NCBI RefSeq assembly: GCF_030063455.1
Contig: NZ_JASITB010000002.1
Location: forward strand, 124,001-188,000
From: Cryobacterium sp. PH31-O1
GTDB taxonomy: Bacteria; Actinomycetota; Actinomycetes; Actinomycetales; Microbacteriaceae
Direction: 5' to 3'
Length of the DNA stretch: 64,000 nucleotides
The notes beneath the pieces were generated by a model. It worked only from the letters and a program-made list of their open reading frames with translations. It was not told the origin of the DNA and did no database searches. Each line of letters starts with the position of its first letter. Positions within the stretch are counted from its first letter, which is position 1. Of this stretch, positions 3,620 through 60,677 are shown piece after piece. Made by a program: the position numbers and the translations under genes.

Positions 3620-3657
3620 CCTGGATCCCTACTGTTGTCGTGCGGTTCAGTTCACTC

Positions 3658-3729
3658 GGACGGGGCCCGGGCCCGGAACGCGGGCCCAGGTTATAACCTG
3701 GGCCCAGGGACGGGGCCCGGGCCCCGTCC
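3658..3729. repeat. GGGCCC-type double palindrome, copy 1
   Basis: Two perfect palindromes sit side by side. One spans 3682-3705 (GGGCCCAGGTTA and its inverse). The other spans 3708-3729 (GGACGGGGCCC and its inverse). A partial third arm lies at 3658-3675. The element falls between glyA and folD, 88 bp after the glyA stop. The same consensus recurs at about 5.3, 16.0 and 19.1 kb. Confidence 0.9.
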
Positions 3730-3816
3730 AAGGTTGCGGCTGGAATGCAGCGCGCGGGCCACGATCGAGCGGATGCCGCTGGCCGAGCCGGCCAGCGGCA
3801 TCCGCCGGCTAAAGGG

Positions 3817-15149: not shown

Positions 15150-16010
15150 ATGACTTCTTCGACCCCGCATCATTGGGTAATCACGCTGGTCTGTGCCGAC
15201 CAGCCCGGCATCGTGCACGCCGTCAGCGGCGCGATCGTGCAGGCGCACGGCAACATCTCAGAGAGCCAGCAGTTCTCCAGCGATGACACCGGCCGTTTCT
15301 TCATGCGACTGCAGGTACAGTCGCCGGCGACCCGGCCCGAGCTCGAACTGGCACTCGCGCCGGTGATCGAGCGCTACGCGATGGCGTCGATCATCGACGT
15401 CGTCGGGCGTCCGCTGCGCACGCTCGTGCTCGCATCGTCGGCCGGACACTGCGTGAACGACCTTCTTTTTCGCCAGCGCGGCGGGCAGATCCCGGTCGAG
15501 ATTCCGCTAGTGCTGAGCAATCACGGCACGCTGCGCGACCTGGTCGGGTTCTACGGGGTGCCGTTCGAGTCGCTGCCCATAACGGATGCCGCCAGCAAAG
15601 CCGACTTCGAGGCCCGCGTGCTTGAGGCGGTCGACGAACTCGACATTGAACTGGTCGTGCTCGCCCGCTATATGCAGATTCTCTCGCCGGAACTGTGCGC
15701 GAGACTCAGCGGGCGGGCGATCAACATCCATCACTCGTTCCTGCCGGGGTTCAAGGGCGCCAACCCATACCGCCAGGCGCACGCGCGCGGCGTGAAGCTG
15801 ATCGGGGCGACGGCGCACTTCGTGACCAGCAACCTCGACGAGGGGCCCATCATCGAGCAGAACGTGGTGCGGGTCGACCACTCGCGCACCCCGGCCGAAC
15901 TCGTGTCGATCGGGCAGGACGAGGAGAGCCGCACACTCACCCAGGCTGTGAAGTGGTTCGCCGAGAACCGGGTGCTGCTCGACGGGGCCCGAACGATCAT
16001 CTTCAAGTAG
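15150..16010 (+). CDS. purU: Formyltetrahydrofolate deformylase
   Basis: PurU hydrolyses 10-formyl-THF to formate and THF, balancing the folate pool and supplying formate. The 286-residue protein has an N-terminal ACT domain (about residues 8-90, 'WVITLVCADQPGIVHAVSGA') that in homologues senses Met and Gly, then a formyltransferase domain. Catalytic-type residues are visible in 'NIHHSFLPGFKGANPY' (Asn and His) and in 'DEGPIIEQNV' (Asp). The start is the ATG at 15150, with a TATTCT box six bases before it. A palindromic GGGCCC repeat begins two bases after the stop. Confidence 0.96.
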   Translation: MTSSTPHHWVITLVCADQPGIVHAVSGAIVQAHGNISESQQFSSDDTGRFFMRLQVQSPATRPELELALAPVIERYAMASIIDVVGRPLRTLVLASSAGHCVNDLLFRQRGGQIPVEIPLVLSNHGTLRDLVGFYGVPFESLPITDAASKADFEARVLEAVDELDIELVVLARYMQILSPELCARLSGRAINIHHSFLPGFKGANPYRQAHARGVKLIGATAHFVTSNLDEGPIIEQNVVRVDHSRTPAELVSIGQDEESRTLTQAVKWFAENRVLLDGARTIIFK

Positions 16011-16011
16011 C

Positions 16012-16092
16012 GGACGGGGCCCAGGCCCCGTCCGCAGGCCCAGGTTATAAACTTGGCCCAGGGACGGGGCCCGGGCCCCGACCGCCGTCCGG
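16012..16092. repeat. GGGCCC-type palindrome cluster, copy 3
   Basis: Three palindromes lie in series. The first is a near-perfect pair at 16012-16033 (GGACGGGGCCC and its inverse around AG). The second is centred on GGTTATAAACTTGG at about 16038-16058. The third is GGGACGGGGCCCGGGCCCCG from 16061. The element starts two bases after the purU stop codon. Confidence 0.9.
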
Positions 16093-19005: not shown

Positions 19006-19054
19006 AGCTGCCGCGCCGGTTGGTCGCCCACCCTCGCCCACCCCGGGCCACCCG

Positions 19055-19166
19055 GGCCCACCTTACGAACACGGGCCCAGTTTCTAAACTGGGCCCAGGG
19101 ACGGGGCCCGGGCCCCGTCCGGATAGCTACGGGGCCCGGGCACAGAAGACCGGGGCCCGGGACGGC
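19055..19166. repeat. GGGCCC-type palindrome cluster, copy 4 (longest)
   Basis: A perfect 24-bp palindrome lies at 19073-19096 (GGGCCCAGTTTC and inverse arms), followed by a 22-bp perfect palindrome at 19099-19120. Two partial copies of the GGGGCCCGGG core follow at about 19130 and 19152, and a GGGCCCACC precedes at 19055. It starts just after the subtilase stop codon on the minus strand. Confidence 0.9.
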
Positions 19167-59467: not shown

Positions 59468-59537
59468 ATGACCGCGCCCCATTTCGGTAGCCGCTACGCC
59501 GATTACCGTAGCGCTCACCCAAACCGGGCGCGGTCAT
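59468..59537. repeat. 70-bp palindromic repeat, upstream copy
   Basis: It begins ATGACCGCGCCC and ends with the exact inverse GGGCGCGGTCAT. The interior is also largely self-complementary, with CGCTACG facing CGTAGCG. A second copy with four differences lies at 60608-60677, on the other side of the AbiEi-like gene. The remaining gap 59353-59467 is GC-rich and shows no gene. Confidence 0.92.
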
Positions 59538-59613
59538 GGCGATCGGCCGACGAGTTATGCACAGAATGGGCCAGGGCGGCCGACCAAAGCACCTCGCGTG
59601 GCACTCTCACGTC

Positions 59614-60597
59614 ATGACAGTCGCATCCGTTGATCCCCCCAGCACCCTCTTGGCCATCACTCGAACGGATGGCCTCCTGTTGCGCTGCGACGCGGCAGCG
59701 GTCGGCCTCGAGCAGGAATTGCGCCGCGGATTCTCGCAAGGGCAGCTCGTGCGCATCCGTTACGGGGCCTATGTGGGCACAAGTGTGTGGTCGAAGCTCG
59801 GCCCGAATGGCCGCTATCTGTGCCGCATTCGCGCCTTCGCGGCGATCAGTGCCGAACCGCCGGTGTTCTCGCACCATTCCGCGGCGGCGATCTGGGGGTT
59901 ACCGCGGCCCGCCGCCTGGCCGACGGATGTCCATATCAGCGTCCCCGAGGCATCCGGCGGCCGTTCGCGACCCGGGGTAGTTCGGCACACTGCTGGACCG
60001 CCGCCACTGGTCGTCGAACGCGACGGGCTCCGGGTGACAACGGTCGCTGACACCGCGGTCGAGATGGCCCGCGTTCTGCCGTTTGCAGACGCCGTCGCGA
60101 TGATGGATCGTGCCATCCATATTCCCCGGCGGGGCGTCAGCTTGACGACTCGCGAGGACCTGGATCGGTCGCTCGCGGCCCTTGCCGGTCCGGTTCGGCT
60201 GAAGGGACGGGGTGGTGCGCTGCGGGCGGCTGAGTTCGCGTGCACGCAATCAGGGTCGGGCGGCGAATCGATCAGCCGGGCCAACATCCATCTGCTCGGA
60301 TTCGAGGCTCCAGAATTGCAGGTGCGTTTCGACGACGCCGCAGGGTTCATCGCCTTCGTCGACTTCTTCTGGCGCTCGATCAGCAAGGTCGGCGAGTTCG
60401 ACGGCCTCGGCAAGTACCTCAAGGAGGAGTACACGCGCGGCCTCACAACGGCACAGGTCGTGATGGCGGAGAAGGACCGCGAGGACCGCGTGCGGGCGCT
60501 CGGTCCGACATTTGCCCGGTGGGACTGGACGATCGCCCGCGACCTGGCCGTCTTCGGCAAGTTCCTGAGCAGCCACGGAATCCCCCGTGCGCGATAG
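59614..60597 (+). CDS. AbiEi-antitoxin-like protein with a DUF559/Vsr-like nuclease domain
   Basis: The 327-residue protein has an N-terminal winged-helix-like segment of the AbiEi type ('ELRRGFSQGQLVRIRYGAYVG', core 'GFSQGQLVRIRYGAYVG', residues 39-55) and 'FSHHSAAAIWGLP', then a C-terminal domain with a PD-(D/E)XK pattern: Glu218 in 'GGESISR', Asp250 in 'FVDFFWR', Glu261/Asp263 in 'GEFDG' and Lys267. This layout is widespread in actinobacteria and of unknown function. No AbiEii toxin lies nearby. Start at the ATG at 59614; the frame opens at 59536 inside the repeat. It is bracketed by 70-bp palindromes and sits between two minus-strand genes. Confidence 0.75.
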   Translation: MTVASVDPPSTLLAITRTDGLLLRCDAAAVGLEQELRRGFSQGQLVRIRYGAYVGTSVWSKLGPNGRYLCRIRAFAAISAEPPVFSHHSAAAIWGLPRPAAWPTDVHISVPEASGGRSRPGVVRHTAGPPPLVVERDGLRVTTVADTAVEMARVLPFADAVAMMDRAIHIPRRGVSLTTREDLDRSLAALAGPVRLKGRGGALRAAEFACTQSGSGGESISRANIHLLGFEAPELQVRFDDAAGFIAFVDFFWRSISKVGEFDGLGKYLKEEYTRGLTTAQVVMAEKDREDRVRALGPTFARWDWTIARDLAVFGKFLSSHGIPRAR

Positions 60598-60607
60598 GCC
60601 GCGCATC

Positions 60608-60677
60608 ATGGCCGCGCCCCGTTTCGGTAGGCGCTACGCCGATTACCGTAGCGCGCACCCAAACCGGGCGCGGTCAT
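60608..60677. repeat. 70-bp palindromic repeat, downstream copy
   Basis: It is identical to 59468-59537 at 66 of 70 positions and lies in the same orientation, eleven bases after the stop of the AbiEi-like gene. Confidence 0.92.

Follow-up and report, generated by a model that had tools for sequence, protein, structure and literature searches.

Repetitive extragenic palindromic (REP) sequences are 20-40 bp long, with one of their ends marked by a GTAG or CGTC tag (PMC3733652). In the sections of the literature drawn on here, the REP-associated tyrosine transposases (RAYTs) are single-copy, vertically inherited genes that are often flanked by their own repeats, with more repeats where the gene is present (PMC8049555, PMC3733652), and some repeat classes, e.g., the CGTC REPs, are described as having no known enzyme (PMC3733652). 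According to the parts of PMC3985639 used here, the AbiEi protein of S. agalactiae represses its own promoter by binding paired 11-bp inverted repeats, which reach 23 bp if four mismatches are allowed. Here we describe a gene of Cryobacterium sp. PH31-O1 that resembles both systems in part: an AbiEi-like/nuclease gene flanked by two 70-bp palindromes, together spanning positions 59468..60677 of a 64,000-nucleotide (64-kb) stretch of contig NZ_JASITB010000002.1 (positions 124,001 to 188,000, forward strand; assembly GCF_030063455.1), hereafter “the window”. Judged by sequence comparison, the association between this gene family and its palindromes is solid. The features at the locus are as follows.

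59468..59537, plus strand: upstream 70-bp palindrome with 31-nt arms and an 8-nt middle (hairpin search and folding)
59614..60597, plus strand: AbiEi-like/nuclease gene with a 327-aa product (ATG start at 59614)
60608..60677, plus strand: downstream 70-bp palindrome, 94% identical to the first and in the same orientation (hairpin search and folding)

An earlier, sequence-only reading of this stretch had reported two direct 70-bp copies identical at 66/70 positions, and this is what we find; both are imperfect palindromes. The perfect 12-bp ends it described hold for copy 1, while copy 2 has one mismatch there, and of its two spacings the 76 bp from copy 1 to the gene start stands, with the distance from the stop to copy 2 measuring 10 bp instead of 11. 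A 28-base core pattern (up to three mismatches) matches the window twice, exactly at the two copies, and has no match in 100 shuffles. Single-strand folding of both copies is far better than that of shuffles (z -6.2 and -5.2). For the window's palindrome type (“type A”), the covariation score is 0.164 against 0.126 for column shuffles (0/500), and two further measures also exceed their shuffles, which take no account of relatedness; the set comprised the 28/35 type A copies of exactly 70 nt. At several of the variable columns, only about half of the copies can pair. Type A reads as conserved blocks in an inverted array, like the binding site of a protein, with folding also possible.

Across the gene family, palindromes are concentrated at the gene. 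The 80 named relatives span Cryobacterium, Arthrobacter, Frigoribacterium, Cellulomonas, Naasia and others. The 78.8 kb up to 500 bp from their family genes contain 62 long palindromes, compared with 3 in the other 382.5 kb, an enrichment of ~100-fold; at this strict cut-off, palindromes are found on both sides of 13 genes, on one side of 34 and on neither side of 33. With a looser cut-off, the corresponding numbers for 71 loci (69 same-genus and two from other genera) are 32, 22 and 17. These 71 are the family-gene matches, out of 88, that were examined and placed on the gene tree, the other 17 being the locus L218 and 16 matches that are weaker or partial. All cut-offs are our own choice and differ between the scans of the window, the 80 relatives and the 71 loci, and they miss real cases: L053 (genome G016) was scored “none” though type A copies lie on both sides, as was L023 at the looser cut-off though elements flank the gene. 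The palindromes of the family have a median length of 64 nt. Chance palindromes are excluded by the shuffles of the core pattern, by the ~100-fold enrichment and by the match between up- and downstream copies.

That match is part of a wider agreement between palindrome type and gene lineage. In 27/32 cases the palindromes before and after a gene are alike (similarity >0.45; the 99th percentile for random palindromes is 0.32), and paralogues within one genome share a palindrome in 0/39 pairs. Between genomes, palindromes are shared by 26/28 pairs at ≥75% protein identity, by 25/44 at 65-75% and by 21/141 at 55-65%. Palindrome similarity follows protein similarity (Mantel r 0.75, 0/5000 permutations), and permuting palindromes only among same-genome paralogues reached the observed fit in 0/5000, a test that depends less on shared ancestry than the exact p-values do. 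Two further family genes in the own genome, L022 and L023 (43% and 37% identity), have their own palindromes, unrelated to type A: L022 has them on both sides, and for L023 (G000:C11:333445-334392) a single element precedes the gene and two follow it. In 16 same-genus genomes, with presence of a gene clade taken from the gene tree and absence judged among the 71 loci, the L023 type is present in 5/5 genomes with its cognate clade and 0/11 without, the L022 type in 4/4 and 0/12, and the L061 type in 2/2 and 0/14; G017 and G019 also carry both the L023 type and its gene clade. An Arthrobacter type occurs in the four genomes picked for their gene-flanking copies and in 0/18 others. Type A is present in all six genomes of its gene subclade (the G009 gene is decayed).

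Copies also lie away from the genes. Type A has nine distinct sites in its own genome, including the two at the gene and leaving out three weaker matches (E 0.2-0.4). The repeat is not confined to this gene. The genome search proposed in the sequence-only reading found it in 10/40 genomes (own included), all of the same genus. The L022 type has three own-genome sites away from its gene, and the L023 type has at least 32 distinct own-genome sites among the matches listed (hand count), with three more from another search. Beyond the gene flanks, the L061 type has two sites in G007 and eight in G004 (hand count). Matches of one palindrome on both strands were merged by hand into sites, and the scans scored part of the candidates in some genomes (23/45 in G016, 36/72 in G000), which makes the counts for these genomes minimum values. 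By heuristic gene calls, 33/35 type A and 17/20 L023-type copies are outside genes. The window itself has nine hairpins at one cut-off, four of them longer than 44 nt: the two that flank the gene and the first two of the following dispersed elements.

3655..3732, no strand assigned: dispersed 78-bp palindrome of the L023 type (hairpin search and genome scan)
16010..16085, no strand assigned: dispersed palindrome of the L023 type, absent at this site in relative G010 (hairpin search and locus comparison)
19052..19118, no strand assigned: dispersed element of the L023 type, 90-93% identical in four species

Around this last copy, identity is 21-61% in the neighbouring intergenic DNA and 78-88% for the genes on either side. 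The contrast is weaker at a second dispersed site, where identity across six species is 88-91% for the element, 83-90% for one flanking gene and 68-85% just beside the element; this site has two elements in G000 (G013's second is diverged), one in five relatives and none in two genomes without an L023-clade gene among the loci examined. Dispersed copies therefore look selected or homogenised.

As modelled (predicted local distance difference test score, pLDDT, 92), the protein is an AbiEi-type module (residues about 9-210) joined to a VSR/EDxHD-type nuclease fold (215-324), which bears out the winged helix and nuclease proposed from sequence. The acidic residues of the nuclease domain, a feature of VSR-type fold membership, are invariant in the family (set A4, which took 62/80 named-relative loci, the remainder being <285 aa or containing a stop). 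In fold and acidic residues it is like VSR, the EDxHD homing endonucleases (I-Bth0305I) and DUF559/MTES_1575; unlike them, it is fused to an AbiEi module, paired with palindromes, has no intron and matches no Pfam nuclease family; it is VSR/EDxHD-like by fold. Pfam, NCBIfam and PHROGs gave no informative match for the window protein except a sub-threshold AbiEi_4 (E 0.13), a PDB sequence search gave a single match at chance level, and Y1_Tnp matched neither the window protein nor its relatives. Two more distant paralogues in the own genome, L024 and L025, have sub-threshold MTES_1575/DUF559 matches; at the hairpin cut-off used on the window, neither shows a long palindrome up to 500 bp away.

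The gene tends to stay at one place. While khtT is present in 25/25 same-genus genomes, the gene lies at the khtT-glpD locus in 16 of them; a look for empty sites, as the sequence-only reading had suggested, did not find it there in the other nine. Two of the 16 (G009 and G014) have a decayed gene, and in G015 it is beside glpD but ~4 kb from khtT. The flanking palindromes at this locus are quite different in sequence between lineages, and most are still palindromic. A mobilised cassette, one of the possibilities first raised, was rejected as the main reading in view of a gene (intact or decayed) at a single locus in 16/25 genomes with lineage-specific palindromes, and of its near absence from phage and plasmid records, where tblastn found a relative in 0/50,697 (E 1e-5) and 2/72,556 (E 1e-8), respectively. 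Decay and a scar at the locus point to gene loss in some genomes. The decayed copies L230 (G009) and L233 (G014) adjoin worn palindromes; the former has changed nuclease-motif residues and a stop, and the latter keeps only a diverged part. Among genomes without the gene at the locus, an unrelated inverted element (AATTCGACGGAGAT arms) is present twice in the khtT-glpD gap of L234 (G024), and in L232 (G017) the gene's place is taken by unrelated sequence, with khtT and the end of glpD ~570 bp apart.

The layout recurs in another class of bacteria. A Collinsella homologue, most of which can be aligned, is preceded by four palindromes and followed by two, and its palindrome is found at 20 places in a 0.9-Mb record (strands counted apart). 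In two 50-kb Collinsella stretches there are 13 matches (some partial), all in the gene-bearing stretch and none inside an annotated gene; six of them are at the gene's flanks and the other seven elsewhere, and their arms are conserved with a variable middle. The palindromes there are arranged in small arrays with ~80 bp spacing (L317 6235-6456, 12003-12144, 13246-13547 and 21075-21293).

Compared with the described systems, this family is like REPs and RAYTs in its gene-flanking palindromes, which recur between other genes and agree with the gene lineage, in its vertical inheritance, and in the persistence of repeats in gene-less genomes, as far as PMC8049555 and PMC3733652 are drawn on here. 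Unlike RAYTs, it has no HUH/Y1 domain (PF01797 in 0/25 genomes; the control was positive in 5/14), its fold being AbiEi plus VSR; its palindromes are longer than REPs (median 64 nt versus the 20-40 bp given in PMC3733652), and there are several genes with different palindromes per genome, with copies mostly in the tens or fewer. In four reference elements, whose ends are unmapped, type A alone contains GTAG, in its interior, the L023 type has CGTC close to its ends, and the L022 and L061 types have neither. The AbiE type IV toxin-antitoxin system shares the AbiEi-type antitoxin fold, here the N-terminal two thirds of the protein. Unlike AbiE, the family adds a nuclease domain and has palindromes on both sides and dispersed, and no AbiEii nucleotidyltransferase toxin gene adjoins. 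The gene is alone on the plus strand, with minus-strand open reading frames (ORFs) either side: Na/H exchanger-like and TrkA_C (KhtU/KhtT-like) on one flank, GlpD-like and IMPDH-like on the other. This layout, a lone gene among housekeeping genes with no toxin or transposase beside it, is as the sequence-only reading had it. RAYT identity was rejected (no Y1 domain), as was an ordinary AbiE system (no toxin beside the gene). The family fails membership in both by the features tested, and we therefore file it under neither; it is a candidate for an undescribed system. Open-licence PMC literature held no description of the gene-palindrome association among the matches listed, subscription papers and preprints being outside the scope.

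The natural reading of the association is that the protein recognises its own palindrome, which we consider very probable. We strongly favour a protein, probably dimeric, that recognises the inverted half-sites of its own palindrome, much as paired inverted repeats are recognised by AbiEi; its AbiEi-like module would put the nuclease on the palindrome. With less certainty, the nuclease may nick or cut DNA at palindrome sites, and host repair would then copy or homogenise the palindrome at new places. Cutting and repair copying of the palindromes would, on this proposal, therefore let the gene stay put, be inherited vertically and maintain a population of short palindromes, the role thought to be played by RAYT transposases on REPs, here filled by an unrelated enzyme. 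We lean slightly towards treating gene and palindromes as such an enzyme-substrate pair, in which the protein recognises the palindromes and the nuclease copies or homogenises them; palindrome dispersal by the nuclease, taken on its own, is plausible and about evenly balanced. More tentatively, and a little short of an even bet, AbiEi-VSR fusions may have evolved independently as a second class of bacterial enzymes that disperse palindromes, stationary nucleases copying their cognate palindromes through the chromosome by cutting and repair, and co-diverging with them in parallel Actinomycetota lineages. REP palindromes have so far been tied to one enzyme family, RAYTs, and this gene family, a “hypothetical protein” in two annotated records, would supply a second enzyme type. 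It would also account for many long palindromes in these actinobacterial genomes, and its many natural enzyme-palindrome pairs would allow specificity tests.

Several observations weigh against this enzyme-substrate proposal. The sequence-only reading had held that related genes without repeats, or scattered repeats without such genes, would speak against a link, and each is found in part: no palindrome is present at the cut-offs used in 17/71 and 33/80 loci, and the repeats are scattered, for the most part where the genome also has the cognate gene clade. A palindrome is shared in 1/1179 distant pairs (<55% protein identity). Type A persists in 4/19 other same-genus genomes without an intact gene, of which G014 has a pseudogene at the locus, G019 has half a palindrome, and G003 and G017 have no visible gene relic. 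The copy excess is slight, with 9, 16, 10, 23 and 13 type A sites where the gene is intact compared with 14, 2, 6, 9 and 4 in the others; this is a weak trend (one-sided p 0.04, from hand-counted sites and an exact p-value that ignores shared ancestry). Copy numbers can be very low, the Arthrobacter type having 1, 3, 1 and 0 sites beyond the flanks. Two of the five covariation measures for type A are not clearly above shuffles (58 and 51 of 500), and the strongly conserved dispersed copy at 19052..19118 could also be a binding site that is kept by selection and does not move. A Tsukamurella homologue has no such palindromes nearby. Finally, a Y1 enzyme may be at work in Collinsella because an insertion sequence (IS) transposase gene of the IS200/IS605 type is in the same record, ~10 kb away, and the search for Y1 covered 25 genomes, none of them Arthrobacter.

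The palindromes could instead be operators through which the AbiEi-like module represses the gene itself along with a scattered regulon, or shapes the chromosome, with the nuclease acting elsewhere or as a side function. Repression of the AbiEi promoter through paired inverted repeats is a precedent (PMC3985639, as drawn on above), the 90-93% conservation of a dispersed copy in four species within poorly conserved intergenic DNA agrees with it, and both the type A pattern, in which conserved blocks alternate with variable, often unpaired columns, and the conserved arms and variable middle in Collinsella are as expected of a double-stranded binding site. We nevertheless judge operators unlikely: a matching copy is often downstream of the gene too, 19/35 type A and 8/20 L023-type copies (heuristic gene calls) are between convergent genes, which are poor places for operators, and the nuclease residues are invariant. 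A defence or genome-surveillance nuclease, for which the palindromes would be self-marks, decoys, docking sites or, as palindromes or cruciforms in invading DNA, targets, would suit the VSR-type fold and the PADLOC AbiEi models that match 21/21 family members scanned. It is improbable given the housekeeping neighbours, the one conserved locus, the lack of an adjoining toxin gene and the occurrence of relatives in no phage and only two plasmid records, and it leaves the matching of palindrome to gene lineage unexplained; that such models match genes of this family, although the one studied here has no toxin beside it, calls for caution. Passive palindromes, i.e., terminators, or miniature inverted-repeat transposable elements moved by another transposase, near these genes by chance or hitchhiking, would suit the many copies between convergent genes and are very improbable in view of the ~100-fold enrichment at the gene, the lineage matching even among same-genome paralogues and the lack of a Y1 transposase in the 25 genomes searched (IS elements sharing the palindrome ends were not searched for).

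Some smaller features of the gene remain. Compared with its G013 orthologue, it has a nonsynonymous rate (dN) of 0.147 and a synonymous rate (dS) of 0.776. An extra ATG at 59536 falls inside the end of palindrome 1, but aligned orthologues start near 59614 instead. Between the upstream palindrome and the gene lies a short motif.

59555..59564, plus strand: TTATGCACAG, one copy of a TTATCCACAG-like motif that is enriched upstream of family genes

The TTATCCACAG-like motif (up to two mismatches) occurs upstream of 37/77 family genes compared with 4/154 control stretches (loci L081-L160), mostly oriented with the gene, and it may resemble a DnaA box, with a conceivable link to replication.
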